The notes: generated by a model not told the origin, from the sequence alone. DNA of 64,000 nt from a virus (IMGVR_UViG_3300042525_000901:1-64000), one strand, 5' to 3'; positions 7,008 to 55,948 are shown, counted from the stretch's first letter. A program made the numbers and translations.

Positions 7008-7034
7008 TTAGGCGATCGCTCTGATGTAGTTTAT

Positions 7035-7057: not shown

Positions 7058-7065
7058 CAAAAGAA

Positions 7066-28255: not shown

Positions 28256-28597
28256 ATGAACGAAAAAATGACCGGCCAAGTTGAAGCGCTGCAATCTCAG
28301 ATTGGAGAGTTGCAGCGAGACATTGCAGACCTAATGGACACGATTACGTCCGCACGAAAGCTGGTGGAAAAGGCGTTTTCGTGGGATGCAATCCAGCCGC
28401 CGCCGCCCGGTTTTTCGCTTTCTCCGTCCGAGTATGCTGAATTAATCGGCTTGACCCCTAGTGCTATCCGCGCTCGCATTAAGTCCTCAAAGTGGAAGAA
28501 AGGTGTGCATTACGTGGATGTGCGAGCGCCTGGGGCGACGCGTCCTCGGTTCCTGATCAATCCCAAAGCTGTTGAGGCGGGTAGCGATGCTGCGTGA
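28256..28597 (+). CDS. DNA-binding protein, replication operon
   Basis: 113 residues: an N-terminal coiled coil (VEALQSQIGELQRDIADLMDTI) and a C-terminal winged-helix-like DNA-binding domain (SPSEYAELIGLTPSAIRARIKSSKWKKG then a VRAPGATRPRF strand). This resembles excisionase-type or primosomal DNA-binding proteins. Its stop overlaps the start of the helicase gene (28587), so they are translationally coupled. Confidence 0.55.
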   Translation: MNEKMTGQVEALQSQIGELQRDIADLMDTITSARKLVEKAFSWDAIQPPPPGFSLSPSEYAELIGLTPSAIRARIKSSKWKKGVHYVDVRAPGATRPRFLINPKAVEAGSDAA

Positions 28598-30230
28598 ATA
28601 TCAGCGCACGGCAATCGATAGCGTTTTTGGTCAAATGCGATCCGGTGTTTCTGACTCCCTGTTGGTTTCGCCTACCGGATCTGGCAAGACCGTGATCGCC
28701 GCCGATATTTGTCGGCAGGGTTACGAGCGCGGGCGGCGTATTTTATTCGTGGCGACGCGGCAACCGTTGATCGCACAGACAGCAAAAAAACTCTCAGCGT
28801 TTGGGGTAAGCCGCGAACACATTGGCTTAATCCAGGGCGCAAACTCGGAAACGCAATCCGCCCCGGTTCAGGTCGCCTCGCTCCAAACCTTAGCCCGTCG
28901 CAAGTGGTGGAAAGCAAAACCGTTTGACCTCATTATTTACGATGAGGCTCACGAGTCTCGTTTCCATAAGGCCGCGCAAACCGTTCGCGAGCTGTCACCG
29001 AACGGCAAAGTGCTTGGCTTAACTGCTACTCCCTATCGCACTAAGTCGTCAGAAACGCTAGGGAAGTTTTTTAACGGACTAGTCGTGACACGATTAGTTC
29101 GTGAACTTCAAGCTGATGGCTTTCTCGCCAAAGCGGACTACTACGCCGCTGGTGAAGAAACGGATGTTAGCACCGTTCGGATCGCTTCCGATGGTGATTA
29201 CAACCAAGACGACCTACAGCAGGCGTGCAACTCCCCTGAACTGATTGATGATGCGATCGCACATTGGCAAGCGCTAGCTGGGGGGAAACGAACTATTGTG
29301 TTTGCCACCGGCATTGCTCACGCTGACGCCATTCGCGATCGCTTTCAGTCTCTCGGTGTTCGTGCCGAGGTCGTGACGGGTGAGACACCAGAGAAGCGGC
29401 GAAACATTCTTTATAAGCGGATGCGTTCCGGTTCTATTCCTGTGCTGATTTCTGTCGGTGTCCTGACCACGGGCTTTGATGAACCGTCGGTAGAATGCTT
29501 GCTGCTACTTCGTAAGACGTTATCGCGATCGCTTCATGAACAAATGATCGGGCGGGGTCTGCGGATCTCGCCCGAGACTGGCAAAGAGAAATGCATCGTG
29601 ATTGACCAGGCTCGAAACTGCCTGGTTCATGGCGTGCCTGAATTGATCGATGGGTATGAACTCGACCCACCGAAGGATAAGAAAAAACGTGGCGAGGCTG
29701 ACCCACGGTTGAAAGTCTGCCCTGCCTGTTCCAACTACTCGACCGACCCCAAACGCTGCGATAATTGCGGTTACGAGTTTCCAATCCTCGATAGCCAAGT
29801 CGTTGAAATTGAGAATCCAATTTTAGGTTTCTCGAAAATCGCCATTCCAGAAGATCCAGCAGTGCGTCATCGTGCACAGTTTCGCAAGCTATGCGCCCAA
29901 GCATTCAAAAAAGGCTATCAGCCCATGTGGGTGCAAAAACGATGGGCAGAGGCCAAGCCCGACGGCTGCAAAGGTGTCGCGATGGAATGGTGGGATCGCG
30001 CGGCAACCGAGCACATCGAAGACACGTGGCAAGCGATTCATGCTTACAAATCACACCTCGAATTCCTCGCCAGAAAGCACAACAAAGCTAACCCCGGCAA
30101 CTGGGTTCATCATTACTTGTGTGTTGAGTTTGCTGAAGATATTGACCTTATTTCGGACTTAGAGGACTTTGACCAACTTGATGATCAGCCCGAGAGTTAT
30201 TACGCCAAAGAACCCACTCACAATATGTAA
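28587..30230 (+). CDS. RadD-like DEAD/DEAH helicase
   Basis: 547 residues from the ATG at 28587 (GAGGCGG just upstream). Motif I SPTGSGKT (about 30-37), motif II YDEAHES (about 118), motif III LGLTATPYR, motif VI IGRGLRIS. A C-terminal zinc ribbon, CPACSNYSTDPKRCDNCGYEFP (around 375-396), is typical of RadD/YejH-type repair helicases. It would remodel recombination or replication intermediates in the phage-plasmid. Confidence 0.85.
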   Translation: MLREYQRTAIDSVFGQMRSGVSDSLLVSPTGSGKTVIAADICRQGYERGRRILFVATRQPLIAQTAKKLSAFGVSREHIGLIQGANSETQSAPVQVASLQTLARRKWWKAKPFDLIIYDEAHESRFHKAAQTVRELSPNGKVLGLTATPYRTKSSETLGKFFNGLVVTRLVRELQADGFLAKADYYAAGEETDVSTVRIASDGDYNQDDLQQACNSPELIDDAIAHWQALAGGKRTIVFATGIAHADAIRDRFQSLGVRAEVVTGETPEKRRNILYKRMRSGSIPVLISVGVLTTGFDEPSVECLLLLRKTLSRSLHEQMIGRGLRISPETGKEKCIVIDQARNCLVHGVPELIDGYELDPPKDKKKRGEADPRLKVCPACSNYSTDPKRCDNCGYEFPILDSQVVEIENPILGFSKIAIPEDPAVRHRAQFRKLCAQAFKKGYQPMWVQKRWAEAKPDGCKGVAMEWWDRAATEHIEDTWQAIHAYKSHLEFLARKHNKANPGNWVHHYLCVEFAEDIDLISDLEDFDQLDDQPESYYAKEPTHNM

Positions 30231-30245: not shown

Positions 30246-30569
30246 ATGAAGCCACCCACAACACGAGACGGCCTGACGTGCCTGAGTGCCGTCGCAAAAT
30301 TCTACGAAGTCCCCACGGCCACCATTATTCAAAAAGTAGGGTCAAGCCACGCGTTTAACTGTGAGCGACCTCGTTACCTGACGAAGGAAGAGGCGATCTC
30401 GTTAGGTGTTGGCACAGCGTCAAAAATCAAATTGTTTCGGTGGGCAGATGACCATCACGAGCTTATCGTCACAGCACTGACCACCAAGCCCGAGCCAAGA
30501 CCACGACCTCAAATCGAGCCTCGCTACCCTCAGTCTACCAATTACACACCTGGAAAATTCCGACGATGA
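30246..30569 (+). CDS. Unknown protein in replication operon
   Basis: 107 residues, with an N-terminal helical part (LSAVAKFYEVPTATIIQKVGSS) that may be a helix-turn-helix, and a proline-rich basic C-terminus. Its stop overlaps the RuvC-like gene start (ATGA), so it belongs to the replication and recombination operon. No family recognised. Confidence 0.5.
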   Translation: MKPPTTRDGLTCLSAVAKFYEVPTATIIQKVGSSHAFNCERPRYLTKEEAISLGVGTASKIKLFRWADDHHELIVTALTTKPEPRPRPQIEPRYPQSTNYTPGKFRR

Positions 30570-31117
30570 TTGAGATCAAGCATTACATTATCGGGATTGA
30601 CCCTGGCACGTCAGGGGCGATCGCCGTCATCGCTCCTAGCAGTGGATTGATTGAAATTCACGATTGCCCTACCCGATCTGTTCGTGGCAGCAATGGCAAG
30701 CCAAAAGATATCTTGGACTTTAGTGGCGTCGCGAGCCTGTTGCGCTCGTACCGAGGAAACGCGATCGCCGTCATAGAAAAAGTCAGTGCGGGTCTTTTCC
30801 GCGCTGACGATGGCAAGTCTGGAGATAAACGCACAGCGATCGGGGCGGTTTCCGCTTCGACGTTTATGCAGAATTTCGGAGCGTGGCAACAGGCTTGTGC
30901 CTGCAACGACATTCCCACTCGCCTCGTAACGCCGTCCGTCTGGAAACGCACCGTGGGTCTTTCAAAGGATAAAGCCCGCTCAATTCGGGTAGCAGCGGAG
31001 CTATTCCCGCGTGCCGACATTTCCGACAGTCACGATCGAGCAGAGGCGCTGATGCTCGCCTACTATGGTTGGCTAGCCGATGCTGACGCTTTTCTCACCC
31101 CGCCCCCAAAACTTTAA
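30566..31117 (+). CDS. RuvC-like Holliday junction resolvase
   Basis: 183 residues with the RuvC/RNase H fold catalytic positions: GIDPGTSGA (about 10-18), an IEKVSAGLF strand (Glu about 72), and a C-terminal HDRAEALMLAYYG helix (Asp about 154). RuvC-type resolvases cut four-way junctions formed in recombination-dependent replication. It is coupled to the preceding gene and precedes the dCTP deaminase by 2 bp. Confidence 0.85.
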   Translation: MIEIKHYIIGIDPGTSGAIAVIAPSSGLIEIHDCPTRSVRGSNGKPKDILDFSGVASLLRSYRGNAIAVIEKVSAGLFRADDGKSGDKRTAIGAVSASTFMQNFGAWQQACACNDIPTRLVTPSVWKRTVGLSKDKARSIRVAAELFPRADISDSHDRAEALMLAYYGWLADADAFLTPPPKL

Positions 31118-31119: not shown

Positions 31120-31707
31120 ATGACTTTCTCTACTCCCAACACTGCTTTGCTGTCCCGCTCCGAGATTTCCCGTCGTGCCATCCTGGGGATGATTGATCCG
31201 TTCGTTTCGACCAAAGTTCGGGATGGTGGCATCAGCTACGGCCTGACCGAGACGGGCTATGATTTGCGGTTGTCCTCGATCGACTTCCGGCTCATCACCG
31301 GCAATCTCGATAAACCCATCGACCCGCTCAACTTTGATGCAGGCCGTGAAACGACGCGACTACCGCTTCAGGAGGACGACAACGGGCTGTACTTCGTAAT
31401 GCCTCCGCACTCCTATGCGCTAGGTGTAGCGGTTGAAAAGCTCGTCATGCCGAACGATGTTCTCGCGATCGCCGTCGGAAAATCGACCTATGCTCGCGTA
31501 GGTGTGATCGCAAACATTACCCCAATTGAACCCGGATGGCACGGATACCTGACGTTAGAATTCTGCAACGGTTCAAACGCTCCTGTACGCCTGTATGCCA
31601 ACAAAGGCATTGTGCAACTGCTCTTCTACCACTGCGAGACCGGAGTGGCGTACAATGGCAAATACCAAGGCCAAGCAAACCGTGTTACGCCCGCCTGTGG
31701 TGATTGA
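31120..31707 (+). CDS. dcd: dCTP deaminase
   Basis: 195 residues. Family signatures are GKSTYARVGVIANITPIEPGW (the GxSxxAR motif with active-site region), YLTLEFCNG with the catalytic Glu, and GKYQGQ near the C-terminus. It converts dCTP to dUTP, feeding dTTP synthesis and altering the nucleotide pool. It ends the plus-strand replication operon in front of a strong terminator. Confidence 0.9.
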   Translation: MTFSTPNTALLSRSEISRRAILGMIDPFVSTKVRDGGISYGLTETGYDLRLSSIDFRLITGNLDKPIDPLNFDAGRETTRLPLQEDDNGLYFVMPPHSYALGVAVEKLVMPNDVLAIAVGKSTYARVGVIANITPIEPGWHGYLTLEFCNGSNAPVRLYANKGIVQLLFYHCETGVAYNGKYQGQANRVTPACGD

Positions 31708-33435: not shown

Positions 33436-33867
33436 TTAAGTGATAGCTTCAAAGAGCGCGGGACGTGTTTCGAGTTTTTGGGCGAGTTGGCGATCACATA
33501 ACGACTTTGCCCATGCTTCGTAATTGCGCTGAAAACAGGAAAAGTTTAGCTTTTCGTCCGAACATCGCGAGATCGCGCGGGCATAGTCTGTCCAGCAAAA
33601 ATACTTTGAGCGCTCGCTTCGGACAGCATGTAGAACCCACATCGAGTAAGGGCAGAGGTTTCGCCGTTTAACGCGGGTGCGGGCGTTCACGTATGTTACG
33701 AACCGCCAATCGACCGGCAATGAATCAGCAAGTTGCTGCTCTGTTGTGGCAAGCGTGTTTTTGGCAACGCCGATTGTATTGGCGAACGTTTGGCGATCAG
33801 TTGCGCGATTTTCAGACAGCAAGCAATCGTGAATTGTCTTTGGCGGCTCCAAGGGCAAGATAATCAC
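33436..33867 (-). CDS. Unknown protein coupled to nuclease gene
   Basis: 143 residues from the GTG at 33867, which overlaps the stop of the nuclease gene (GTGA); the longer upstream frame is disfavoured. Two Cys-x-x-type pairs and basic helices (TYVNARTRVKRRNLCPYSMW). It may assist the nuclease. Not recognised. Confidence 0.5.
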   Translation of the reverse strand: MIILPLEPPKTIHDCLLSENRATDRQTFANTIGVAKNTLATTEQQLADSLPVDWRFVTYVNARTRVKRRNLCPYSMWVLHAVRSERSKYFCWTDYARAISRCSDEKLNFSCFQRNYEAWAKSLCDRQLAQKLETRPALFEAIT

Positions 33868-34517
33868 GACACTAGATCCCCATAGCGGTCGTACCACTGC
33901 ACGAGCCAATTTTCAAACAGCTCTAGCATTTGCTCGTAGGTTTCGTTCTTGGCGTCTACACGTTTCAGTCTCATGACGTGAGCGTTACCGTTGGGCAGGG
34001 CGAAAATGATTCGAGCTTCGTCGATTAGGTCGTCTCCGATCGCGTGCCAGTATGCGGCAATTTGACAAAGGTATCCAATACACTGAGCCGACGATCGGGC
34101 GCGGCGCGAGGCTGGGGCTTTCCAGTCGATTACGACTTTGATGGTTTGCCCTTTCTCTACGATCTCGCCGTAGAAATCGTATGACCCTGCATAACGCAAG
34201 CCGCGCAATTCCCCAATGATTTGCTGTTGGCGATCGTAAATGCGCTCAACCTTATCAAGCTCTGGCAGGACGGAAACAAGCCACGGACGATACTGCGGCT
34301 CAATTTCACACAGACCTGTGTCGAGGTAGCGGTCAATCGCCGCTTCTACTATGTTGCCTCGCCCCAAGTGGTCAACACCGGGCTTGGAATACGATTGAAT
34401 GATTGCATCTGTAATGTCGGGCTCACTGCATTTGGCAATCGTGGTGACGCCCGGTAGCAAGCCGATCGGTGTTTGATGTAGGCGTTGACCGCCTACTGTT
34501 TTGTGCGTTGCGAGCAT
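33864..34517 (-). CDS. PD-(D/E)XK nuclease (Cas4/RecB-like)
   Basis: 217 residues from the ATG at 34517, which has CAGGAAAC as ribosome binding site. Catalytic pattern: Asp in AGSYDFYG (about 125), Asp and Lys in VVIDWKAP (about 142-147), and a Q-x3-Y segment in QIAAYWHA (about 166). This is the fold of RecB-type and Cas4-type nucleases, and of phage recombination exonucleases. It would resect DNA ends for recombination. No Cys cluster for an iron-sulphur centre is seen. Confidence 0.75.
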   Translation of the reverse strand: MLATHKTVGGQRLHQTPIGLLPGVTTIAKCSEPDITDAIIQSYSKPGVDHLGRGNIVEAAIDRYLDTGLCEIEPQYRPWLVSVLPELDKVERIYDRQQQIIGELRGLRYAGSYDFYGEIVEKGQTIKVVIDWKAPASRRARSSAQCIGYLCQIAAYWHAIGDDLIDEARIIFALPNGNAHVMRLKRVDAKNETYEQMLELFENWLVQWYDRYGDLVS

Positions 34518-35373: not shown

Positions 35374-36378
35374 TTACGGGCTAAGATTTGCAATCTGCGA
35401 GATTAGCCCGTAGTACAGCGGAGGCGGGACACTGTACCCCACGATCGAGCCAGTGACGGCCAACGACTTGGGCATCTGATACCAATCAGGGAATCCACCC
35501 CATCGAGCAAGGCAACGTCCATCGGCTTGTCGTGCAATACCGTCGTCGGTGATGATGTCGATAAAGCGATTGCGATCGCTCATCTTGTCCTTTTCGCCGT
35601 TATGCCAGTCGCATGAGACGCGCCGTAAAATCGTCCACATCGGTTCATCTTTGGTGAGCACTCGTGGCGTCCCGTTGCGGTAGCCTGAACGCTCGATCAA
35701 GAGTGGCGTGGCAGAACCATGGGGCTTGATGGCATTTTTCTCTACAGGTAGCAGTGTCGTCTCCGGCAACTCATAGGCGAACGATTTGATCGCATCCCAC
35801 CAGCCAATCTTTACCCCTTGAGGTTGGATTTGAGGGGCGAACGCATGGCGAACGGCAATCCCGAAAAATCGGCGTCGGTCTTGTGGTGTGCCAAAGTCCG
35901 CAGCGTTGAAGACGGCTTCTTTCACCCAATAACCTTCCGACCAAAGGTAATCACGAATCATGTACCAGCTTTCAGATTTGCGATAGGCTGGAACGTTTTC
36001 GATTGTAACGATTCGCGGATGGACTGAGTTGATCGCTCGGGTGACGGCTTCCGCCATTTCCACGTCTAACGATCGCTCCCCTCGATCTCGCTTCGCCAGT
36101 GAGAAATTAGTACAGACGGGCGATGCGTGGAAGATGTCGGCACGGGGTAGCTCATCGGCGCAGTCTTGGATCGATCGGCGGATAACTTCATGGCCGTATT
36201 CAGCGAAGTTGAGGTCGTTGGCGTCAGCGAGGGCGGCACTAAGGTTCGGCATGGTCGGATCAAATTCGACGCTCGCGATCGGGCGAATTCCAGCCATCAC
36301 CGCACCGGCTTCGACGCCACCGCCACCGGCAAACGCGGTAACGATGGTTGGGGCGTCAGGGGGAAGGGTTGGTTTCAC
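35374..36378 (-). CDS. DNA cytosine-5 methyltransferase
   Basis: 334 residues from a GTG at 36378 with GGAGG upstream. Motif I TAFAGGGGVEAG (about 14-25), motif IV with the nucleophile Cys89 in SPVCTNFS, motif VI ENV (127-129), motif VIII QDRRRFF (166-172), motif X IVGYSVPPPLYYGL. Only one residue separates Pro and Cys, an unusual but still workable form of motif IV. It could protect the element from host restriction or set epigenetic state. Target sequence cannot be read from the sequence. Confidence 0.88.
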   Translation of the reverse strand: MKPTLPPDAPTIVTAFAGGGGVEAGAVMAGIRPIASVEFDPTMPNLSAALADANDLNFAEYGHEVIRRSIQDCADELPRADIFHASPVCTNFSLAKRDRGERSLDVEMAEAVTRAINSVHPRIVTIENVPAYRKSESWYMIRDYLWSEGYWVKEAVFNAADFGTPQDRRRFFGIAVRHAFAPQIQPQGVKIGWWDAIKSFAYELPETTLLPVEKNAIKPHGSATPLLIERSGYRNGTPRVLTKDEPMWTILRRVSCDWHNGEKDKMSDRNRFIDIITDDGIARQADGRCLARWGGFPDWYQMPKSLAVTGSIVGYSVPPPLYYGLISQIANLSP

Positions 36379-36929: not shown

Positions 36930-38069
36930 CTAATCCCGAATCTGTACCGGCATGACGAGGTGTGTCATTTTTGTGCCCCCGAGGGGGGTAATGATCACGG
37001 GTGAAGTGGGCGTATTGAACTGCATTTGCACCTCCGTTGATTGCAGGTTTCGCAGCGATTCCATCACGTATTTCACGTTGAAGGCGATCGTCAAGCCATT
37101 GCCAGTCAGTTGGATGTTGAGCGATTCTTTGCCACTGCCCACATCGGCAGCATCGACACTGAGGGCGAGGGTTTGGCTTTTCTCGTTGATCGTAAATTTG
37201 ACGATGTTGTTCTTGCGATCAGCAATTACCGCGATCCGTTCCAGGGTGCTGAGAAGCTGACGACGATCGACCGTCATCTGGGTGGCGAACTGTTGCGGGA
37301 TGAGCTGACGATAAGCCGGATACGTCCCGTCCAGCTTGCGGCTTGTAATCCGCTGATCATCCATCTCAAACACCACCTGACTATCGTCAAAGTGCAACTT
37401 AACCGCTTCGTCACCGTTCATCTTGGCCAAAGCCCGCTCTAGTTCCCGCAACGCATTCGCCGGGATGGTGACCGCCACATCCTTTAGCGACTCATCCGCC
37501 GCTGCATCATCATCGATCGTTTCCACCACCGCGAGACGATGCCCATCGGTTGCCGCAAACTCTAGGCCATGCTGACCCATCGACAAATGAACCCCGGTTA
37601 ACACCTGTTTTGTCTCGTCACTGCTGGCGGAGAACAATGCCCCGCGCAATCCTTCGGTTAACGTCTCCGCAGCGATCTCGATCGTCTTACCGTCCTCGAT
37701 CCATGGCAGTTCAGGGAATTCCTCCGAACTCATGCCGCGTAATTCGTAGTTACCGGTTAGGCAGGTGAGCGTCGTCAAGGTGGCGTCCGGCTCATTTTCC
37801 AGGGAGATCGGGCCGTCCGGCAGGCGGGATACGATATCGTTTAGCAGTTTCGCCGGGATAGCAATCTCGCCGCTTTCGTCTACCGTCGCGGCAAAGCTGG
37901 TACGAATTCCGAGGCTTAGGTTAAACCCAATTAGCGAGACTTGCTGCGTCGTGGAACAAGCCACAACACGAACGTTTGCCAATACCGGATGGGTCGGGCG
38001 GGATGGGACGGCACGAAGTGCAAAACTAACAGCATCAGCAAGTTGAGAGCGATTACAAGTAAATTTCAT
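36930..38069 (-). CDS. dnaN: DNA polymerase III beta sliding clamp
   Basis: 379 residues, the full length of a bacterial DnaN. Diagnostic features are the N-terminal MKFTCNRSQLADAV, NPVLANVRV-type strand, the LTCLTGNYELRGMSSEEFPELP segment (domain 2), the LTGVHLSMGQHGLEFAATDGHRLAVVE strand, and the C-terminal TPLGGTKMTHLVMPVQIRD with a methionine-proline-valine tail. The intact clamp suggests the element can run replication with partial independence from the host clamp. Its start overlaps the preceding small ORF. Confidence 0.92.
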   Translation of the reverse strand: MKFTCNRSQLADAVSFALRAVPSRPTHPVLANVRVVACSTTQQVSLIGFNLSLGIRTSFAATVDESGEIAIPAKLLNDIVSRLPDGPISLENEPDATLTTLTCLTGNYELRGMSSEEFPELPWIEDGKTIEIAAETLTEGLRGALFSASSDETKQVLTGVHLSMGQHGLEFAATDGHRLAVVETIDDDAAADESLKDVAVTIPANALRELERALAKMNGDEAVKLHFDDSQVVFEMDDQRITSRKLDGTYPAYRQLIPQQFATQMTVDRRQLLSTLERIAVIADRKNNIVKFTINEKSQTLALSVDAADVGSGKESLNIQLTGNGLTIAFNVKYVMESLRNLQSTEVQMQFNTPTSPVIITPLGGTKMTHLVMPVQIRD

Positions 38070-38701: not shown

Positions 38702-41700
38702 CTACATGGCGAACATGCGAACAGCGGACGAGACTTTGACTGGCTGGCCGTTCCCGTCTGTTAGCGTGCCTAGGTGAGGCCAGAACAATGCCGTCCCTAG
38801 CTGCATGGTTCCATCTTCGTGATGCGTGAATGTGCGCGTGTAATCAGCGTGTGGCGTTGATTCAGTCGGCAGGACGGTGCTGATGGTCGTTGCGAACTCG
38901 ATTATCTCGCCTTCCGGTGTGGTTAGTGTTCCGAGGTTCGCATCAGGATGAGCAATTTTCCATGATTTCGCCTTGTCGTCCCAAGCCCAAACCCAATCGA
39001 CATTAGCTAGCCATGCGATCCATGTAATACCTTTTATATAGGGGTAAGTGGTTGACGTGGCACGCTCTGCAATCGGCTGTGATTCACTTGCTGTAACCGT
39101 TTCAGCCGATCCAACTGGTTCGTCGTCGTTGGATTCGTCCGGGGTGATATATTCCTGGTAAGCAGCCTCAAAACGCTTCTGGATTGCGACAACGGTTTCC
39201 CCTTCAAATTTGTCTTCACTGAACCCGTACATCGTGGGTTCGCCTTTCTTCCCACGCGATTTGCGGGTGGGGTTGTAGCCCAGGAATCGAAGGCAAGCAT
39301 GAAGGAAACGAAGCGAATCACGGCGCACTGAAACACCAAAAGCGAGATCTACAAGGCTGCGTTGTTCGCGAGTTAGCGAGCCGTACCAAGCGTCAACATC
39401 GTCGCGAGTCCAGTCTTCCGATCTTTCAACCCATTGCATCAAATCAATCTCGGATAGCGCTTTGACTTTGAGGGTCATAAATCCCCAGTCAAACAAGAGG
39501 GTTTGCGATCGGTCGTAGGTTCGCAGGCGCTTGGCATCATTCACGAGAGCGTAAGACGGATTGAGAAACGCGACGCGCAATTCAATGCGACGTAGGTAAG
39601 CGCGATCGTCATGCCGCACCAAGCGGACGAACTCGGGTGTAATCTCGCGACCGGGAACACGATCTTGCAGTAGCGACTTTTGAGCGCTGTAACGCAATCC
39701 AGGATCAACGCAATCACGACGTAGAATCTCTAGTGCGTCTTCACGGTTAAGGCCGCCCGGTGCGTCCGCTTCACGCGCGGCCTCGGCATCAATAATTTCG
39801 TCTGCTACGGCTTGACGATCCTCTTCGATTTCGTCGTCCCGTTCGGCCATGATTTTGGTGATAGTTTTGCCGTCGGCTTCCAGCGATTCGTATAGGTTGC
39901 CTGCGAGATCAAACTTGGAGCAGTTGGCCGATGCCGTGTACTCACACCACGCCGTGAGCCACGGGTGAGAGTAGCGCTTCGTCACCGGATCAAACAGGCG
40001 CATCATGTTCGCTTGGTGGATTTCGTCAGGGCCTAGCCCGTGAGGTAGGCCATAGCGAGAATACTCAAGAATCGCGTGCAAGTTTTCGCGATTCACTTCC
40101 GACTGGCGCGACTCCAGTACGGACACAAACGGGCTGTGAGCCGCGTAGGTTTGGCCGCCGATCGCGTTGACAGCGATGAAGCGCTCAACCGGCACGCGGT
40201 AGCGACCGAGCATCTGTAGCGCGGCTTGGTGGGTTGTCTCGCCGCCCTGGAATAGGGCGTACACCCGATCAAAGTAGGGAACGGTGATCGACAATCCCGA
40301 CTCAACCGAGGGCGAGCACAAATAGAAATCGTAGTCGTGAGCCAGGATGAAAGCGTCAGGATCTTGGATGAACTTTTGGGCAAGTTCCTGTAGCTCTTTC
40401 CCGTGATCGCCACTCAATACTTTGGAGTCGATGCGTAAAGTTTTCGCGCCAAACGACTTGACTAAAAGCTCCTCAATTGAATGCAGCCAGATCCGTGATG
40501 ACGATTGAATCAGGCATTTTTTGCGATCAGCAGCGGCAGAGAGTAAGTGCGTTTGCAGTGCCTCGTCACAGCCGGTACGAGTTGCTTTCCCGTTCGAGCC
40601 GATTGACCCATCAAACCAGGTGACGGGATAAGCGATCGCGGTGTCGTATTTATTGACGTGCGCGTGAGCCTTGAACTCCTGAGAGGCGATCGCACGCACG
40701 GTGCGGACTGATTTTGATGACGCGGCTGCATCAGCAAGAATGATGTGACGATTGCCTCGAAACAGCTCGCCCATCAATCCAAGGATTTCGCAACGGTCAT
40801 TGGCGTTGATGGTTCCGCCCAGCAGTGCGTGGGGGAACACCGACTCGCATTCGTCAATGAAGACGATTGTGTTTTCGTGACTGCTACCGTCCCACCACGG
40901 CATTTCCAATTTTTTTAGGGAATCAGCGCAGAGGAACATGACGCGAGAGTTTCGCATCTGATCCAAACTGGCATCAGCTAAAACAGTCGAGCCAAACTCT
41001 GATAGACGCTCAACCGTTTGGCGGCCAAGAGCGTTGCGGTATCCGATGACTAGCACTCGCAGTGTTGAGTCTTCTCGTAACCACTGAGCAAGCAATTCTG
41101 TCTTGCCTGTCCCCATCGGAGACTTGACTACGGTAACGCCCTTTTGACGCGGTAGGGCGATCGCACTTGACGAAAGGTAGCGGAGTTCGTGCTCGGTTGT
41201 AGGGATATCATCAAGCCCGTCTAGTCGCCGCATTTCGCGCTTGACCTTTTCTGTGAGAATTCGCTTGCGAACATCGCGTCGGGTTTGCCCTGGTTCCCGA
41301 CGCGATTCAACGTCATCAGCATCCAACACGCAGTTGGCGAACCACGTGTCTACGTCAACGAACTTGATTGAGCTTTTGGCCGCCGGGGTCTGATTCAGGA
41401 GATCGTCATAATCAAAGCGAGATTTGTCATACCCGTGACCCCAATCGGCGATCGTGACCTCTTCCGATGCTGCATCCAGAATCGTCAGCGTCTTCCAGTC
41501 CCGCTTGGCAACCCCCGAGTTAACGAGCGAACCCGCGTCTGGGTAAAACACGACTGGTAGCTTTTGCCCCGCCATTTTGCGGATCTCTTCAATCTCGCTC
41601 ATCAGCCATGCAGGGCTGTTGAAGAACTGGCCACCGAAGCAGCCGACGAACACTGTCTCACCATCGAGATGGGCTGAGTAAAACGGTTTCCCTGTGCCTT

Positions 41701-42433
41701 CGATTAGACCAATACGCTTGACGCGCGATCGGTCAGCAGGCCAGCACACCGTCAGCGGTTGCTCACCTGTTTCCTTGAGGTGCGGTGTCGGTGCGTTCGG
41801 GCGTTTCTTCGTGGTGCTGGAAAGGTGCTTGTACTTGCCCCCGCGCTTGTCGTTCATCGCAATCTCGAACGCGAGGATTTGACCTCGTGCGGAGAGCTTG
41901 GGCAGGATGTAGCCCGAGCCGGGAGTGATTAGGCAATCACCGTCGATCGAGACTCCGGGCAAATTCGGATTTGTCGGGCGCACCTTTTGCCATTGAGCCA
42001 CGGTGCGGAACCCAGCCTGAAATGCGATTTCCCAGGAAATACCACGACGCTTCATTTCGTCGCGATGCGCTTGCGACAATTGCAGATTGGCAATGATGTC
42101 ACGGTAAAGCGAATCGCGTTCTGAAGTCGGCAGGGCGATCGCCTGACGCGCGGATTCTGTTTCCAGTACTTTTTCTCGGTTCTGGCGTCGCGATTCCGCC
42201 CAGTCGCGTTTGCGTTGCTCAATCTCTTCAGGAGATAGTGCGTTTTCATCTTTGAGCAGAACGCGAGTGATGCCAGTTGTGTCCTCACAGTCCCAACACA
42301 TGAAACCGCCTTGCCCAACGGTTAGCTTGCCATCGCACAACGGGCAGTGGTATGCGTGCTTCAGCCCCCGTGGGTGAGACTCCGAGACGTAGGGTTGCAG
42401 CTCAACCAGTCGATCTGATAGAATATTAGACAT
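38702..42433 (-). CDS. CyRepA1-like plasmid replication protein
   Basis: 1243 residues. N-terminal zinc finger (Cys30, Cys33, Cys46, Cys49: CPLCDGKLTV and FMCWDC). A toprim-like DUF3854-type part has VVFYPDAGSLVNSGV around 290-310. A central helicase has Walker A SPMGTGKTELL around residue 437, the acidic motif FIDECESVF around 527 and ILADAA around 565. Resemblance to the CyRepA1 family of cyanobacterial plasmid Rep proteins is by overall layout; I cannot run a search. The C-terminal 140 residues include the repeat element inside the frame (39008-39112). Ribosome binding site AGGAGG. Confidence 0.75.
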   Translation of the reverse strand: MSNILSDRLVELQPYVSESHPRGLKHAYHCPLCDGKLTVGQGGFMCWDCEDTTGITRVLLKDENALSPEEIEQRKRDWAESRRQNREKVLETESARQAIALPTSERDSLYRDIIANLQLSQAHRDEMKRRGISWEIAFQAGFRTVAQWQKVRPTNPNLPGVSIDGDCLITPGSGYILPKLSARGQILAFEIAMNDKRGGKYKHLSSTTKKRPNAPTPHLKETGEQPLTVCWPADRSRVKRIGLIEGTGKPFYSAHLDGETVFVGCFGGQFFNSPAWLMSEIEEIRKMAGQKLPVVFYPDAGSLVNSGVAKRDWKTLTILDAASEEVTIADWGHGYDKSRFDYDDLLNQTPAAKSSIKFVDVDTWFANCVLDADDVESRREPGQTRRDVRKRILTEKVKREMRRLDGLDDIPTTEHELRYLSSSAIALPRQKGVTVVKSPMGTGKTELLAQWLREDSTLRVLVIGYRNALGRQTVERLSEFGSTVLADASLDQMRNSRVMFLCADSLKKLEMPWWDGSSHENTIVFIDECESVFPHALLGGTINANDRCEILGLMGELFRGNRHIILADAAASSKSVRTVRAIASQEFKAHAHVNKYDTAIAYPVTWFDGSIGSNGKATRTGCDEALQTHLLSAAADRKKCLIQSSSRIWLHSIEELLVKSFGAKTLRIDSKVLSGDHGKELQELAQKFIQDPDAFILAHDYDFYLCSPSVESGLSITVPYFDRVYALFQGGETTHQAALQMLGRYRVPVERFIAVNAIGGQTYAAHSPFVSVLESRQSEVNRENLHAILEYSRYGLPHGLGPDEIHQANMMRLFDPVTKRYSHPWLTAWCEYTASANCSKFDLAGNLYESLEADGKTITKIMAERDDEIEEDRQAVADEIIDAEAAREADAPGGLNREDALEILRRDCVDPGLRYSAQKSLLQDRVPGREITPEFVRLVRHDDRAYLRRIELRVAFLNPSYALVNDAKRLRTYDRSQTLLFDWGFMTLKVKALSEIDLMQWVERSEDWTRDDVDAWYGSLTREQRSLVDLAFGVSVRRDSLRFLHACLRFLGYNPTRKSRGKKGEPTMYGFSEDKFEGETVVAIQKRFEAAYQEYITPDESNDDEPVGSAETVTASESQPIAERATSTTYPYIKGITWIAWLANVDWVWAWDDKAKSWKIAHPDANLGTLTTPEGEIIEFATTISTVLPTESTPHADYTRTFTHHEDGTMQLGTALFWPHLGTLTDGNGQPVKVSSAVRMFAM
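39008..39112 (+). repeat. CACGTG repeat element, copy 5, inside the Rep gene
   Basis: The element lies in a coding frame on the opposite strand. The left arm is degenerate (TAGCCATGCG at 39008-39017); the right arm GACGTGGCAC is at 39054-39063, 36 bp away; then 38 bp, then TCAGCCG at 39102. It encodes Rep residues of about 1107-1142 (RATSTTYPYIKGITWIAW region) without stop codons. Confidence 0.75.
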
Positions 42434-42644
42434 TAGATAACCTCCTGTAACGCGATTCCCCGACGTAACACAACCTTCCCCGGTTGATCTTGGTTGTCCT
42501 TCACACTCTTACTTCTGAAATGACCCGCCGTTTCCTCCGGTGGGTCATTTTGTTTTTGTGAATTTGTTCGTGATTTTGATGGGTTCATCCCACTCGCCTC
42601 AACCAGGGTTCCCCCATCTTACCCTGATATTCTCAAACTCAAAC
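42434..42644. promoter_or_regulatory. Rep gene leader with conserved hairpin
   Basis: The region holds AGGAGG before the Rep start, a hairpin with arms AAATGACCC (42518-42526) and GGGTCATTT (42542-42550), followed on the plus strand by T-rich sequence, and on the minus strand by an A-rich tract. It could be a terminator of the Rep-distal side or an attenuator in the Rep leader. No iterons were visible here. Confidence 0.45.
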
Positions 42645-42705: not shown

Positions 42706-44199
42706 TCAAATCGAGCGGCTGATGATGTAGGCCGTTTCACGAGCGCGGGTGATCGCCGTGTAGCGTAGTCGGTTTCGGGTAGGGAGTTTTGCCCCTTGAA
42801 AATCATCGTCAATGACAAAAACCTTGTCAAAAGTTTGGCCGGTGGCCTTGTGTGTGGTTGATGCGTACCCATAAGAGATCGGGTCATGCATGTCTTTGAA
42901 GCGGTACAAATCTGACCAGGCGAACCGGCGATCTTGCTTGTTTTTGATGCCCTTGATCACGTCGGTGATTTCTTTGATTGAGCGGTAGTACCAGGCCATT
43001 AAATCGTCAGGCAACTGGGTCAAGACGACCTCCTCTCCGTTCGACTTACGTCCGGTGATGTAAAAGACTTTGTTCCAGGCCATCCATTCTTTGATACGCG
43101 CGTCTTCGATAAGGGCGATCGTTTGTGGGTTCCATCGCTGTTCGCCAACCCGACGATTTATCACGCGAAACATCGTACCGTTTTGCGCGGCAAAATAGGC
43201 TTGATTGATCAGGCTGTCCCAGCGACGAATGGGTTTGTTGGCGAGTAGGATTTCCCCCACACAGTAAGGCTCGGTGAAGCCTAGAAGCTTTGTGCGGACG
43301 AATTCGTTGGTTCGCTTCACTGTCGCGTTTGTCCACGCCACAACGCGAGCCGCGCGTGGGTGTGTGGCGCTTAGGAAGGCATCGCGCATCGTGTCGAGGA
43401 TGTCTTCGCTGCGAACAAATTTGAGCGTATCGTCACCACGGAACATCACCGACAAAGTGGCCGCATTCGTTTGCGCGTTTCGTAAATCACTGCGAATATG
43501 AGTGGCGATCGCCAATGCCGCGCCTGAGTAGCGGACAACTTCGGTTAGCGTGTATGACCATGAGATTGAAGGCGAAGCGAATGCCGATGGTTCAATCTCG
43601 CCAACCGGCGCGGGCTGTGCCGGATCGCCCATGAATAAGATGCGAGTGTGTGGTAGGGCTTGCTCTTCCAAAAAACGAACGATCTGACGGTTGAGCATCC
43701 CGCTTTCATCTGAGATCACCAAGTCAAACAACCCGATATCTGGCACGGTTTCGGGGTCGCGTTCGCAGCGCTCGTCACCGTTGTCATCGATTTCGATTTT
43801 GAACGCGCACGCCGCCTGGATGGTGCGGAATGTGCAATAACGCGAGACGCCCGCTTGACTTGCGGTATCTCGCAAAACGTCTAATGCTGCGTGGGTTGGC
43901 GCTGCTAGCAAGATTCGGATCTCGTTTCGTTCCTCCGCACGTTTCTCGCCCGTGTGAGGGTCAAGGATGGGGATTGAATACGCCTTGAAGTTGGTAGCAG
44001 CATACTCAATCATCTGCATCGAGCATGTGGTCTTACCAGTTCCGGCGTAACCCTGTAACGCTGCGCGTTGTCCCTTGGTGGTGTCATCGTCCCACCAGTC
44101 ACGAAAGCGATCAAAGACTACCTGCTGATCCGGTGTCAGCGTGATTTTGCTTTCGGCTGCGGTGGCGTCAACGGTGATAGTGTGCGTCATGTCGGTCAT
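42706..44199 (-). CDS. Dda/RecD-like SF1 helicase
   Basis: 497 residues. Motif I GYAGTGKTT (50-58), motif II VISDESGM, motif III GDPAQPAPVGE, motif IV-like YASTTHKATGQTFD, motif VI YTAITRARE at the C-terminus. Dda-type helicases clear proteins from DNA and help start replication forks. It is a separate unit after an attenuator-like hairpin. Confidence 0.88.
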   Translation of the reverse strand: MTDMTHTITVDATAAESKITLTPDQQVVFDRFRDWWDDDTTKGQRAALQGYAGTGKTTCSMQMIEYAATNFKAYSIPILDPHTGEKRAEERNEIRILLAAPTHAALDVLRDTASQAGVSRYCTFRTIQAACAFKIEIDDNGDERCERDPETVPDIGLFDLVISDESGMLNRQIVRFLEEQALPHTRILFMGDPAQPAPVGEIEPSAFASPSISWSYTLTEVVRYSGAALAIATHIRSDLRNAQTNAATLSVMFRGDDTLKFVRSEDILDTMRDAFLSATHPRAARVVAWTNATVKRTNEFVRTKLLGFTEPYCVGEILLANKPIRRWDSLINQAYFAAQNGTMFRVINRRVGEQRWNPQTIALIEDARIKEWMAWNKVFYITGRKSNGEEVVLTQLPDDLMAWYYRSIKEITDVIKGIKNKQDRRFAWSDLYRFKDMHDPISYGYASTTHKATGQTFDKVFVIDDDFQGAKLPTRNRLRYTAITRARETAYIISRSI

Positions 44200-47010: not shown

Positions 47011-48225
47011 GTGCCGATTTCCCGATCGTGGGCGAACCTATTCAAGAAAATCGCGAATCGAATTCGGGGCGCAAAACCGAGCAATATTGATCCGCCCGGA
47101 ACACAGCGACCTGCGCGGAAGGAACGTTGGCACGATACGACGGTTCCGTCCGGGCGGGATTACGATAACGAAATTGACGACATTCCGGTGCGGTCGCCGG
47201 ACTACGCGATCGCCGTGATGGACTTGTGCCGCAATTGTCCCGAGGCGGCAGCGGCGATCGATACAATCGTCCACGCAACCTTGACCGATCCGACTGGTGA
47301 TGAGGTCGGCTTCACCGCTACCGCTGACGAGGGATACAGCAACATCCAAGCAATCCTGGATCGGGTCATGAATGACGCTGTGGGTGGCCTTAAGTCACAG
47401 CAAGCACTGTTTGACCTGCTAGAGGGTGGTAACGCCTTTGCGACGCCATTATTAGAGGTTGCACCAAACGAGACGGGCTACCGATTGCGCGGCCTATCGT
47501 TTCGGCCACCGTGGGAGATGTTCCGGATTGAGGATAAGCACGGGAACTTGCAGGGCTTTGAGCAGCGAGCTTATACGCACGACACCGACGCGGAATTCTA
47601 CCACCCGCTTGCCTGCATTCATTGGCGGTTCCGTCAACGCAAGCTTTATGGGCGATCGCTCTTCCACGAATCGATCCAAGATTGGGCAGATCTAAAAGAA
47701 GTGAAAACAGACTTGATTCGAGGCGCTAGAGCGGTCGGCCTGAATCCGATGGTTCACACGATGCCAGAGGGTTCTGGATCGTTTTACCGTGAAGAGTACC
47801 AAAAAGCGCACCAGGCCAGCTTACGGACGGGTGCGGTCGCTCATATCTACCTCGATTACGGCGCGACGGTTGGGCGGGTAAACACGTCCGACCCAGACCT
47901 TGAGGCGCTGCAATCGACGATGGAGATTTTGCAACGACGAATCATCCTCAAGTCGCACGTGCCTCCGTACTTGATGGGAATGATGCAAGCAGGAGCGCAG
48001 GATCTTGCGACCCAACCCGCCCACCAATTCGCCCGCTTTATCTCAAATTTGCGAATGTGTTTTTCGCAGGGCATCCGGCAGGCGATCGATCTTGAGTTGG
48101 CGCTACACGGAGTACCGCGTGAGCAATGGAAATATCAGCTACAGTTTCCAAAGACGGTGATCAACCCGTACGAACCGCAGAGCGATCTCAATAATCCTCA
48201 GCTACTCGACACGCAGCCGGATTAG
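47011..48225 (+). CDS. Portal protein
   Basis: 404 residues, a typical size for a portal. Conserved landmarks are the N-terminal basic region, then VRSPDYAIAVMDLCRNCPEAAAAIDTI, a central WEMFRIEDKHGNLQGFEQRAYTHD, the stretch WADLKEVKTDLIRGARAVGLNPMV, and the C-terminal PPYLMGMMQAGAQDLATQPAHQFARFI. It forms the twelve-part ring through which DNA is packaged, and leads the head gene group. No head-completion genes follow directly; three small genes come first. Confidence 0.88.
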   Translation: MPISRSWANLFKKIANRIRGAKPSNIDPPGTQRPARKERWHDTTVPSGRDYDNEIDDIPVRSPDYAIAVMDLCRNCPEAAAAIDTIVHATLTDPTGDEVGFTATADEGYSNIQAILDRVMNDAVGGLKSQQALFDLLEGGNAFATPLLEVAPNETGYRLRGLSFRPPWEMFRIEDKHGNLQGFEQRAYTHDTDAEFYHPLACIHWRFRQRKLYGRSLFHESIQDWADLKEVKTDLIRGARAVGLNPMVHTMPEGSGSFYREEYQKAHQASLRTGAVAHIYLDYGATVGRVNTSDPDLEALQSTMEILQRRIILKSHVPPYLMGMMQAGAQDLATQPAHQFARFISNLRMCFSQGIRQAIDLELALHGVPREQWKYQLQFPKTVINPYEPQSDLNNPQLLDTQPD

Positions 48226-49632: not shown

Positions 49633-49848
49633 CTAGTACATCGCCTGTAGCACGCGCTCGGCTACCTCCGGATCATTCCCAAGACAATCGCCTTCGTCGT
49701 GAAAATAGCGCGGTTCCTCAGGTATTGCCCAGAATGCTTTCCCGCGTTTTTCAATAATGAAGGGCATATGATCGGGTTTGTCCGCTGCGAGCTGATCCGC
49801 GATCGCCTGTAGCTGTTCTAATTGGCTTGTCATTAAATTTCGTCCCAT
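49633..49848 (-). CDS. Small unknown protein
   Basis: 71 residues with an N-terminal helix (TSQLEQLQAIADQLAADKPDHMP) and a C-terminal helix. Its start overlaps the RNR stop by 16 bp, so it belongs to the RNR operon. Not recognised. Confidence 0.45.
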   Translation of the reverse strand: MGRNLMTSQLEQLQAIADQLAADKPDHMPFIIEKRGKAFWAIPEEPRYFHDEGDCLGNDPEVAERVLQAMY

Positions 49849-50879
49849 CCTGTGACGCTGCTGCTCATCATGTAGCTGGTAACTTGTGCCTCAAAAAAGT
49901 TCGCTTTGGTTGACCCGTCGGCCTTCGTGTCTGCGAATTTTTCGAGATGAGAATACGGGTTTTTGGTGAACACCTCATCAGCGTAAAGCGGCTGTAGCCC
50001 GATCGCCCGTAGCCGTTGGTTTGCTAAGTACTTGGTGTATTGTTCCGTGCTTTCTGATGTGATACCGAGAATGTCGTCTCCGATAATGTGGTTCGACCAC
50101 AAGCATTCGTGTTGCACCGCAGCATCAAACATTTCGTAAACGCGATCAACCGAATGAGTGAATGTTTGCATCGCCTCCGGGAGCATTTTCTGATACAGCC
50201 GAACGTGACTCAATTCGTCACGATTGATCATCTTAAAAATGTCGGCACTCCCTGGCATAAGCTGACGACTTGCCAGGTTGTAGTAAAAGCAAAATCCATT
50301 GTAGAAGTACAAGCCTTCTAGCAAGTAGTCCGCTACCAAAGCAGTAAAGTAATTCTCTTGCGTTGGGCTGTCAATGTACGCTTGGTACATCCCCGCAATA
50401 AACTTGCATCGATCGCGCAATACCGTATCTGTCCGCCAAAAGTCGTAAACATTTGATCGGCGATCGGAAGGAACGATCGTTTCAATCATGTACTGATATG
50501 ACTGATTATGCATCCCCTCTTGGCTGATTTGTTCTGCCATACACAGCGAAACTTCGGGAGCAGTAACGCTACTTTTAAGATGAGGAATGTTGCAAGTTTG
50601 AACTGAATCGAGAAACGTTAGGTAGCTAAGAATCCCGTCAAATGCACGGCGTTCTTTCGGCGTCAGATTGACGTAATCCGTCACGTCCGAGGTTAGGTCA
50701 AGCTTTTCGGGAATCCAAAAGTTCTGACGCATTTGCTTGTACAGCCCGACCGCCCAATTGTATCGAACATCGTTGAGCTGCATTAGGTTTGTTGTTTCAC
50801 CAAACCAGATTGTTCGGTGAATTGTATCGTCGTTTCCGTCTGGGTTGAAAATGAGATTGGGATGCATTGATTCAATCAT
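49833..50879 (-). CDS. Ribonucleotide reductase beta subunit (class I)
   Basis: 348 residues. The di-iron ligands are all in place: Asp91 in LDSVQ, Glu121 and His124 in EGMHNQSY, Glu188 in DYLLEGLY, and Glu222 and His225 in RDELSH. Tyr128 sits seven residues after Glu121, the place of the radical tyrosine. A complete beta subunit would make radicals for dNTP synthesis. No alpha subunit (NrdA) is in the window; it may lie elsewhere in the element or be supplied by the host. Confidence 0.9.
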   Translation of the reverse strand: MIESMHPNLIFNPDGNDDTIHRTIWFGETTNLMQLNDVRYNWAVGLYKQMRQNFWIPEKLDLTSDVTDYVNLTPKERRAFDGILSYLTFLDSVQTCNIPHLKSSVTAPEVSLCMAEQISQEGMHNQSYQYMIETIVPSDRRSNVYDFWRTDTVLRDRCKFIAGMYQAYIDSPTQENYFTALVADYLLEGLYFYNGFCFYYNLASRQLMPGSADIFKMINRDELSHVRLYQKMLPEAMQTFTHSVDRVYEMFDAAVQHECLWSNHIIGDDILGITSESTEQYTKYLANQRLRAIGLQPLYADEVFTKNPYSHLEKFADTKADGSTKANFFEAQVTSYMMSSSVTGWDEI

Positions 50880-50921: not shown

Positions 50922-51503
50922 TTAGGATATTTTCTGCCAACGATAACCCGCACATTTGTAGCCATACCGAAAGCTTCTCGCTAATGTTGATTTATGAACA
51001 TAAACATCTTTGGCCGCCTCCGCAATGGTTGGGTACACTTTTCCTGTGTCCAAGTTCTTTACGGGAGTTCTGCGAGGGGACTGATCTAAGACGTATTGCA
51101 CGTAATTTTCGCCCAAAAAAGCTGCGACAGCTTCTCGGTCTGCTCCGCACAGCAGAAAAGGATTTCGCTTCGCCACTCTGCGAACTGCTGTTGTTGAAAC
51201 GCCCTTGTCATAGCCCAGCTCTGCTCGGGATGTGTAGCGCTGCAATGCGTGGTAAGCCTGGTTTCGGCTTACCCCAAGAATTCGCGACCACTGAGCGACG
51301 GAAAACCGATCAATCTGCGGACACACAACACGGACATCCTCAGCTTTTGAGACTACCTGAGTGAGCGTCCGATCGTGCCCATCGCGATCGGGGTTTTTCT
51401 TTTGCCATTGCAGAAACAATCTCACGGCCTCCTGCGTGCCGTGGTAGCACACAAGGTCGTATATTTTATCCACCTCATCGGCTGTCCAACGCTTTCGAGC
51501 CAT
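50922..51503 (-). CDS. DNA-binding protein with NUMOD-like C-terminus
   Basis: 193 residues from the ATG at 51503 (TTG at 51518 is a weaker option). An N-terminal helical segment (ADEVDKIYDLVCYHGTQEAV), a helix-turn-helix-like part (FSVAQWSRILGVSRNQAYHALQRY), and a C-terminal NUMOD1-like repeat region (VKNLDTGKVYPTIAEAAKDVYVHKSTLARSFRYG). NUMOD domains occur with homing endonucleases, but no catalytic HNH or GIY-YIG motif is visible. It is a standalone transcription regulator or an endonuclease remnant. Confidence 0.65.
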   Translation of the reverse strand: MARKRWTADEVDKIYDLVCYHGTQEAVRLFLQWQKKNPDRDGHDRTLTQVVSKAEDVRVVCPQIDRFSVAQWSRILGVSRNQAYHALQRYTSRAELGYDKGVSTTAVRRVAKRNPFLLCGADREAVAAFLGENYVQYVLDQSPRRTPVKNLDTGKVYPTIAEAAKDVYVHKSTLARSFRYGYKCAGYRWQKIS

Positions 51504-51527
51504 CCTGCTTAACCCCAAAAGGGCGAA

Positions 51528-51550
51528 ATATACACAACAAACACATTGTA
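51528..51550 (-). promoter_or_regulatory. Early-type promoter
   Basis: Minus-strand TGTGTTTGTTGTG, then TATATT, 30 bp ahead of the 51503 start. A weaker member of the promoter family. Confidence 0.45.
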
Positions 51551-51676
51551 CGTTAATGCGCGTCGGGAGTGCTGAAATAAGTGCTGGACGTTGCCGTAGT
51601 TGAGTTGTGATGACAGGTCAAAGCATTCCAGGCGATTGCGTCAATATATAGATATCAAACATTTCAACGTGAGTAG

Positions 51677-53590
51677 ATGACAGCACGTAACGTATTGAGT
51701 GAGCTTCGATCGCTCTACGCAGACGCGGCGAAAAGCGCGGAAACCCCGATCGCCGATTCAAGCGCTGTGGCCGAAGCTCGGCTCAGTGCCATGTCTGTCG
51801 AAGCTCCTGCTTCCCCCCAACCTTTAACGCATTCGGATACCGTAATGGCAAAAGAACCGACAGCACCCCAGGCCGAAGCGGTCGATCCGGGTGCGACAAC
51901 TGAACCACTGAAGCACGACGCGCCTAGCGGCCTCGATACCGCTAATGATGACGAGATCGTCGTCAGCGCTGAGAACCTGCAAGCGATGGTGAACCTCAAA
52001 GCCTCGCAAGCGTTGGCATCGCACAAAGCCCAGATGGATGCTGAGAAAGAACGAATCGAGCGCGAAAAACAGGAGGCGATCAAAGCCGCTGAGTCGCTGT
52101 CTCACGCTGTTACCGAAGCCGAGAAACGCGCGGCAAAAGCTGAGAAAAACGCAATGCAACTCGGTCGCGTGTTTGAGGCCATGTCGCACGGTCAAGGCGT
52201 GCCGATCGGTGCGCTTGGACATGGGTTCGTTCCTGATGGTCACGGCCCCGTGATCAAAACCGATTCAGTCCCGGCCTACCATGCCGACGGTTTGGCTCGC
52301 GATTTCAAAAACCTGTTTGAGAACTCTCGAACGGTGATGGTTCCTGATCGCCTCTCGAACCGCACCTATTCCACTCGTGATACCGCCCAGCTTCGTGAAT
52401 TTGTCAGCACGACCGATCGCCACGCCCTCCGCTTGGGAATGGAGAAGATGATGGCTCGTGACGGCTTGCTGACCGGCGGTGCTCGCAAGCATGACATTAC
52501 CGCCCCGGTTGACGTTCCTCACCTTTATCGCGAGTTCATCTCGTCTGAGCTGCGTGAAACGTTTAACCCGCAACGAATCTTTCACCAGTTCGTCAAGCCG
52601 TACTCGCGACCTGACGCCGCCCCCGGCCAAACGGTAACGATTCCACGTATCCATCGCACGACCGCTGCTACAACCGCCTCGGCATGGAAGGCGACCTATC
52701 GCGGCGCGGTCAACACAAACCGTCAGCCGATCGAATCATCTAGCGTCATCATCCCGATCGAGATGTGGATGATGGGTACGGAGAACGTAGCCCCGATCGC
52801 CGTTTCCGAATTCGTGTTTGCCTCGTCGCTGACCGAGCTGTTGTCGGCAGTGAACGAAAACCTCAATCACAACTACCGTGATTGGGAAGACATGGTGATT
52901 CGTGAGATTTACTTTAGCTCCACTCGTAAGCTGTACAGCAATGACGGCGCGGTTGTGGATGCACCGGGCAGCGTGACCGCCGGTGGCACATTCACTTACG
53001 AGTTCCTGGTCAATCTGTGCGCTCGCATGGCAGAGGAGGGCGTGCCTCCGTACACCGCTGATGGTAAGTACATCCTCTGGGTGTCTCCGAAGCAGTTGGC
53101 GCAACTGAAGCTTTCGATCCAAGAAAGCCGCGCACCGAAGGATGACGTAGACATCAAAGCTCTGAGCGAGATGCTCATGCCGTCGATGAGCCTACCGAAC
53201 CAGTACACGCTGTCGGGTTACTCCGGTTCGTTCGCTGGTTTCCACATCTTCTCGTCTAACGCGGTTGGCGTTGCTGATTCCGGCACGGCTGGCGATATTG
53301 CAGTTCAAACTGAAACGACCGGCGCTGGCGCGAAACTCACCCGATCAGCGTTGGCCTTTGGTGGCGCTCCGGTTGGCAAAGTTGATGCCATGCCGTTCGA
53401 GATTGTTGAAGACGACTACCACCGCTTCAATAGCGAGCGTTCCTACATCTGGCGTTCTGCGTGCGGTGTTGCCGGTATCGACGTTGACCCCATCCGCACC
53501 CCGATCGCGGAAACCGAAGGCACTACGAGCCGCGCATCTGAGCAAGTAGGCGTTTACCGCGTCCATACCACCGACCTACCCGTCGCATAG
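51677..53590 (+). CDS. Major capsid protein with N-terminal scaffold domain
   Basis: 637 residues. The first 190 are charged and coiled-coil (DAEKERIEREKQEAIKAAESLSH), like a scaffold delta domain. The capsid part begins near 290: FISSELRETFNPQRIFHQFVKPYSRPD, then a HK97-type core with VTIPRIHRTTAATTASAWKATYRGAV, NENLNHNYRDWEDMVIREIYF, and a C-terminal AFGGAPVGKVDAMPFEIVEDDYHRF. A fused scaffold domain means no separate scaffold gene is needed. The upstream 173 bp (51504-51676) hold no further gene. Confidence 0.88.
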   Translation: MTARNVLSELRSLYADAAKSAETPIADSSAVAEARLSAMSVEAPASPQPLTHSDTVMAKEPTAPQAEAVDPGATTEPLKHDAPSGLDTANDDEIVVSAENLQAMVNLKASQALASHKAQMDAEKERIEREKQEAIKAAESLSHAVTEAEKRAAKAEKNAMQLGRVFEAMSHGQGVPIGALGHGFVPDGHGPVIKTDSVPAYHADGLARDFKNLFENSRTVMVPDRLSNRTYSTRDTAQLREFVSTTDRHALRLGMEKMMARDGLLTGGARKHDITAPVDVPHLYREFISSELRETFNPQRIFHQFVKPYSRPDAAPGQTVTIPRIHRTTAATTASAWKATYRGAVNTNRQPIESSSVIIPIEMWMMGTENVAPIAVSEFVFASSLTELLSAVNENLNHNYRDWEDMVIREIYFSSTRKLYSNDGAVVDAPGSVTAGGTFTYEFLVNLCARMAEEGVPPYTADGKYILWVSPKQLAQLKLSIQESRAPKDDVDIKALSEMLMPSMSLPNQYTLSGYSGSFAGFHIFSSNAVGVADSGTAGDIAVQTETTGAGAKLTRSALAFGGAPVGKVDAMPFEIVEDDYHRFNSERSYIWRSACGVAGIDVDPIRTPIAETEGTTSRASEQVGVYRVHTTDLPVA

Positions 53591-53593
53591 GCC

Positions 53594-53950: not shown

Positions 53951-53956
53951 AACCTC

Positions 53957-55468: not shown

Positions 55469-55473
55469 CCACC

Positions 55474-55929: not shown

Positions 55930-55948
55930 TCTCACCCGATAACACAAG

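Follow-up and report, generated by a model that had tools for sequence, protein, structure and literature searches.

The 64,000-nucleotide viral sequence analyzed here (the window) encodes at 38702-42433, on the minus strand, a 1,243-aa protein that is probably the replication initiator of the virus: a CyRepA1-family Rep of plasmid lineage that would start phage replication and recruit the host DNA polymerase III through a clamp encoded by the phage itself. The first-pass annotation, made from the sequence, gave the coordinates of the gene exactly, to which the strand can now be added, and described its product as a plasmid-type Rep inside a cyanobacterial myovirus. This description is supported by the CyRepA1 score, the alignment with plasmid proteins, the relatives of the tail genes, and the tree presented below. 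The further proposal that the virus is an extrachromosomal prophage fared less well and is weighed separately.

Identification of a CyRepA1-family Rep

The NCBIfam model for CyRepA1 (NF042913) matched residues 431-1054 of the protein with 250.5 bits (E 4.3e-74) against a curated cut-off of 200 bits, which excludes a chance match and confirms the family assignment proposed at first pass; a six-frame search with the same model gave 252.8 bits. Pfam Herpes_ori_bp was also recognized (28.6 bits, cut-off 20), and residues 426-582 matched solved structures of the HSV origin-binding protein (E 4e-4). When plasmids were searched with tblastn, the CyRepA1 proteins of Acaryochloris plasmids were found to align colinearly with residues 24-948 at 26% identity, and plasmids of Escherichia and Acinetobacter also matched, with 25-26% being the highest identity to any plasmid Rep. 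The predicted layout consists of a Cys cluster and toprim-like region (~25-361), an SF2 UL9-like helicase (~415-760) overlapping the CyRepA1 match, and a C-terminal tail. Within the helicase, Walker A (G441, G443-K444-T445), Walker B (D527-E528), and motif VI (Q740, R744, R746) are invariant among seven phage and plasmid Reps. At the level of the predicted protein, CyRepA1 membership and the integrity of the helicase motifs are thereby established.

In the N-terminal part, cysteines C30, C33, and C46 are conserved in an alignment with plasmid CyRepA1 proteins and other viral proteins, as are the toprim-like residues E245-G246 and D299-x-G301. Thus, of the zinc finger, toprim-like, and helicase arrangement first described, the Cys cluster and the helicase motifs stand, while the middle element is called toprim-like on the basis of motifs and colinearity only. 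A profile-profile comparison with DUF3854 domains was not significant, and a fold search from the AlphaFold model of residues 1-420 was dropped because the model was too poor (pLDDT 51). The expected match to Pfam DUF3854 (PF12965) did not materialize at E<=10, although the positive controls Slr7037 and Planktothrix scored 170 and 149 bits. However, under the same controls, members of its clade from Acaryochloris, Calothrix, and Nostoc C052 plasmids gave no DUF3854 match either. Since the nearest plasmid Reps behave in the same way, the protein appears to represent a divergent subgroup rather than one with a missing domain, and DUF3854 is not, judging by these profiles, a defining feature of this CyRepA1 subgroup. 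The N-terminal part (~72-361) also recurs in three further viral records (G001-G003), in proteins with no CyRepA1 match of their own, indicating that the parts are shuffled as modules. In the 71-kb record G001, the related domain is fused to a different P-loop protein (L006 9971-13354), and a protein encoded on a 71.6-kb contig of the cyanobacterial genome G052 shares 50% identity with this fusion. The same viral record also encodes a 487-aa serine recombinase.

Replication genes and a proposed mode of initiation

The clamp, helicases, and resolvase that had been said to accompany Rep are all present. The clamp is a full-length DnaN-type beta sliding clamp of 379 aa (36930-38069, minus strand; TIGR00663 320 bits, cut-off 137.65) with all three DnaN Pfam domains; it matches beta clamps in the PDB (E 5e-57) and has relatives in cyanophages. 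A Dda-like helicase is encoded at 42706-44199 (minus strand; phrog_325 E 3.4e-73) and a RadD-like SF2 helicase with BLAST relatives at 28587-30230 (plus strand; phrog_16 E 8.6e-92). The latter scored 175 bits with the RadD model, under that model's cut-off, and is common to N-1, YongM, G001, and the viral record G010. The Holliday-junction resolvase (30566-31117, plus strand; phrog_1770 at 30581-31072, E 1e-31) is followed by a dCTP deaminase-like protein (31120-31707, plus strand; Pfam DCD E 5e-26) that is ~50% identical to its N-1 and YongM relatives by BLAST. On the minus strand are an exonuclease-like protein (33864-34517; phrog_298 E 3.6e-9), a DNA methyltransferase (35374-36378; phrog_116 E 4.2e-38), and the small subunit of ribonucleotide reductase (49833-50879; phrog_86 E 4.1e-86), for which no large subunit was recognized in the record. 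Pfam or PHROGs scans of the incomplete contig revealed no DNA polymerase among ORFs of ~300 aa or longer, with a 637-aa ORF (51677-53590) and several ORFs of 312-377 aa left without a family. Elsewhere, a CyRepA1-like protein (150 bits) adjoins a relative of the phage's RadD-like helicase on a 25.6-kb contig of Picosynechococcus 7117 (G004 contig 4; L141, 12403-17068).

Rep most likely binds a phage origin, probably located within or close to the transcription unit of Rep itself, and its UL9-like SF2 helicase most likely melts this origin. The Cys cluster and toprim-like part would probably prime synthesis or aid priming. Because the phage encodes a beta clamp but no recognizable DNA polymerase, the host DNA polymerase III is most likely recruited through the phage clamp, and the Dda-like and RadD-like helicases would contribute to fork progression and recombination together with the resolvase. 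As for the family, the CyRepA1 protein Slr7037 is needed for pSYSA to stay a separate replicon, for which theta replication has been proposed (PMC9978351), and two cyanobacteria support replication of CyRepA1 vectors (PMC10899382).

Upstream of rep, a possible leader ORF of 51 aa (42433-42588, minus strand) overlaps the Rep start as TAATG. A strong hairpin within it (42516-42552; fold z-score -4.9) is terminator-like on the plus strand, and the ORF and hairpin may together exert leader control on Rep. The ORF was discarded as evidence for plasmid kinship, as it has no homology to plasmid leader ORFs. No iterons were detected around the Rep gene beyond chance-like two-copy matches, and no Rfam RNA families were found in the 64-kb window.

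The virus and its relatives

The window is taken from a 65,707-bp IMG/VR record that is linear, without terminal repeats, and whose right end falls within a collar/fibre gene with repeats; the genome is therefore incomplete. An exact-match search found no contigs bridging the ends of the record, and a single-protein scan found no close relatives in IMG/VR. All the same, an IMG/VR contig of 7,449 bp from metagenome 3300044855 (L055) is 99.3% identical over 5,058 bp (window 50957-56014), so a second dataset also yielded a virus that is almost the same.

That the virus is a myovirus is evident from its genes for baseplate J/wedge protein (18262-19422; phrog_6 E 5.8e-37), tail sheath (53957-55468; phrog_17610 E 7.5e-42; relatives in N-1, A-1, and yong5), tail tube (55507-55929; BLAST to the N-1 tail tube, E 2e-8), and tape measure protein (59595-62723; phrog_28 E 4e-47), all on the plus strand. 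These proteins, the endolysin, and other ORFs match N-1, YongM, and yong5 in BLAST searches, and by its predicted tail module the virus belongs with the Nostoc phages N-1/A-1(L) and the Leptolyngbya phage yong5. On the other hand, the portal-like protein (47011-48225, plus strand; phrog_9232 E 1e-6; 34% identical to a G001 protein) and some adjacent ORFs resemble G001 instead, so the genome is a mosaic.

Two further features of the left part of the window deserve mention. The large terminase gene is split (5211-8680, plus strand), with the ATPase half (5211-6212) and the nuclease half (8081-8680) parted by 1.87 kb of lower-GC DNA carrying a KilA-N ORF (6240-7007) and a 312-aa ORF (7033-7971). 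The gap yielded no Rfam intron or RNA family and has the look of an insertion, intron-like or of another kind. A gene close to the record's left end encodes a GGDEF-EAL (cyclic-di-GMP) protein (655-2337, plus strand; EAL 206 bits). Its matches in phage collections are mostly from unannotated or bacteria-like records, and its C-terminal part has a relative in the viral record G003. The gene may be an unusual one of the phage itself, or else the edge of the contig may consist of DNA derived from the host.

Persistence as an extrachromosomal prophage

Virion genes and a plasmid-type replication gene sit on one molecule here, as in a phage-plasmid. It is possible, if on balance unlikely, that the virus is maintained in cyanobacteria as a circular prophage outside the chromosome, with Rep replicating it, as proposed at first pass. 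The Rep family maintains cyanobacterial plasmids (PMC9978351), and CyRepA1-domain Reps above cut-off are known from VP882, a protelomerase phage, and from the phiKO2-like 48ST307. The claim that an integrase is lacking also held: a six-frame profile search of the incomplete 65,707-bp record found no tyrosine (PF00589) or serine (PF00239) recombinase. Another relative without a tyrosine integrase is G010 (69,128 bp, 127-bp direct terminal repeat, CyRepA1-like protein of 1,267 aa), which had no PF00589 match and none to the ParA set tested or to a serine recombinase, the latter check being against the single G001 enzyme only. However, because the record is linear, without a terminal repeat, and stops inside the fibre gene, the absence of an integrase is not final. 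Such an absence is in any case normal for the related phages N-1 and A-1, which have neither integrase nor partition genes and are reported to be lytic (PMC4916379).

The gene content of the phage and the distribution of its relatives also argue against extrachromosomal maintenance. Searches of the 65.7-kb record for ParA were negative, as were library scans for ParM, ParB, and toxin-antitoxin genes, whereas VP882 and 48ST307 have ParA. Partition genes are common among phage-plasmids, although some do without them. The sheath of this phage was found on no cyanobacterial plasmid in PLSDB; full-length relatives occur in 5 of 386 cyanobacterial genomes, three of them chromosomal and two on draft contigs of 46 and 50 kb, and in none of the five was a CyRepA1 protein present in the same region or contig. 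Conversely, the contigs carrying the nearest Reps in these genomes had no tail or structural genes of this phage in the stretches read. Provirus G012 was set aside as an extrachromosomal example, since the plasmid matches of its first 20 kb are mainly due to an IS66 transposase and the element resembles a prophage in decay.

The presence of a CyRepA1 domain above cut-off both in protelomerase phage-plasmids and in the integrase-bearing yong5 means that Rep does not settle the lifestyle. Ordinary lytic growth with this Rep is enough to explain all observations, none of which decides the lifestyle or shows that the virus lives as a plasmid. Published evidence that we found for cyanobacterial phage-plasmids is thin, consisting of ParABS in phage Mic1 (PMC7156551) and a phage-like Microcystis plasmid (PMC12510456). 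Vector assays of autonomous replication in cyanobacteria are available (PMC9978351, PMC10079941), and a Rep that proved functional in such a plasmid assay would provide a direct test of cyanobacterial phage-plasmids.

Plasmid or viral ancestry of Rep

A tree of 31 helicase domains, built from the helicase part only, groups Rep with the plasmid Reps of Rippkaea, Crinalium, Nostoc C052, Calothrix, and Acaryochloris (supports 96/94 and 97/93). The yong5/G012, VP882/phiHAP-1/48ST307, and T5 Reps branch apart from it, and the G010 protein branches with the pSYSA-type group. Descent of Rep from a cyanobacterial plasmid lineage is supported by this one tree, in which its placement is provisional because of the 25-26% identity and the long branch (1.67).

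The family name alone does not mean plasmid, since several phages match the CyRepA1 model: VP882 (505 bits), G012 (302), yong5 (292), and 48ST307 (257) score above the cut-off, with T5-like Sugarland (128) and G010 (113 and 83) below it. Rep might instead belong to a viral lineage of origin-binding helicases, as an ordinary phage Rep in the T5-like style, in which case plasmids would have obtained theirs from phages and "plasmid-type" would be a mere name. The matches to Sugarland, yong5, and VP882 fit this reading, as do those to Escherichia and Acinetobacter plasmids, but we regard it as unlikely, given that the tree places Rep inside the cyanobacterial plasmid Reps. AU tests of groupings of Rep with other phage Reps gave p values of 0.042 (all phages together), 0.030, and 0.029, a weak objection, as the constraints were picked after the tree was seen, the branches are long, and the rejection is only mild. 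Plasmid ancestry of Rep is retained, and the location of its nearest relatives on cyanobacterial plasmids points to replication genes having been swapped between viruses and plasmids.

A fuller scenario combines ancestry and lifestyle: a phage-plasmid that captured its Rep from cyanobacterial plasmids, uses its own DnaN to take over the host polymerase III, and dispenses with integrase and ParA-type partition, with the G010 lineage perhaps having independently captured a different plasmid Rep. As a whole, this scenario is doubtful. Least probable of the readings considered is an integrative temperate phage with its integrase beyond the assembled contig: the right end is indeed incomplete, yong5 combines a CyRepA1 domain with an integrase, and sheath relatives reside in chromosomes (G004/G007 of Picosynechococcus 7117, G055, and G351, with a tyrosine integrase in the G007 record), but complete relatives measure 65-69 kb, so that with 65.7 kb already assembled there is little space for further genes, and no repressor was recognized.

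Comparison with known systems

The closest counterparts of Rep are the plasmid CyRepA1 proteins (Slr7037 of pSYSA and those of Acaryochloris, Crinalium, and Nostoc plasmids), with which it shares a helicase domain above the family cut-off. The resemblance to the Acaryochloris proteins extends to length, domain order, the N-terminal Cys cluster, and the E..DxG motif. Unlike these plasmid proteins, to which it is only 25-26% identical, Rep resides in a virion-building genome with a clamp; it also has no DUF3854 match, a trait that it shares with its nearest plasmid kin. The RepA proteins of VP882 and phiHAP-1 and the phiKO2-like primase are similarly large and combine a CyRepA1-type helicase with a toprim region at the N terminus (Toprim_3 in VP882), but those phages have protelomerase and/or ParA and their Reps form a separate branch. 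The T5-like origin-binding protein of Sugarland shares a Herpes_ori_bp-type helicase, although its match falls below the CyRepA1 cut-off. The 740-aa helicase of Leptolyngbya phage Lbo402-yong5 exceeds that cut-off and comes from a myophage with related tail genes, yet it is without the N-terminal toprim region, and yong5 encodes a DNA polymerase of its own as well as an integrase.

Among phages, N-1, A-1(L), Anabaena phage Elbi, and Nostoc phage YongM share the tail, baseplate, endolysin, RadD-like helicase, and dCTP-deaminase genes as well as a genome size of ~65 kb. They differ in replicating with PolB and in having no CyRepA1 protein above cut-off; of the N-1 proteins encoded at 28-32.5 kb (the PolB region), only the helicase matches the window. 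In these related phages, it is PolB that is common to cyanobacterial plasmids (PMC4916379), whereas here the common part is the initiator. Taken together, these cases suggest a common pool of replication modules on which both freshwater cyanophages and plasmids rely.
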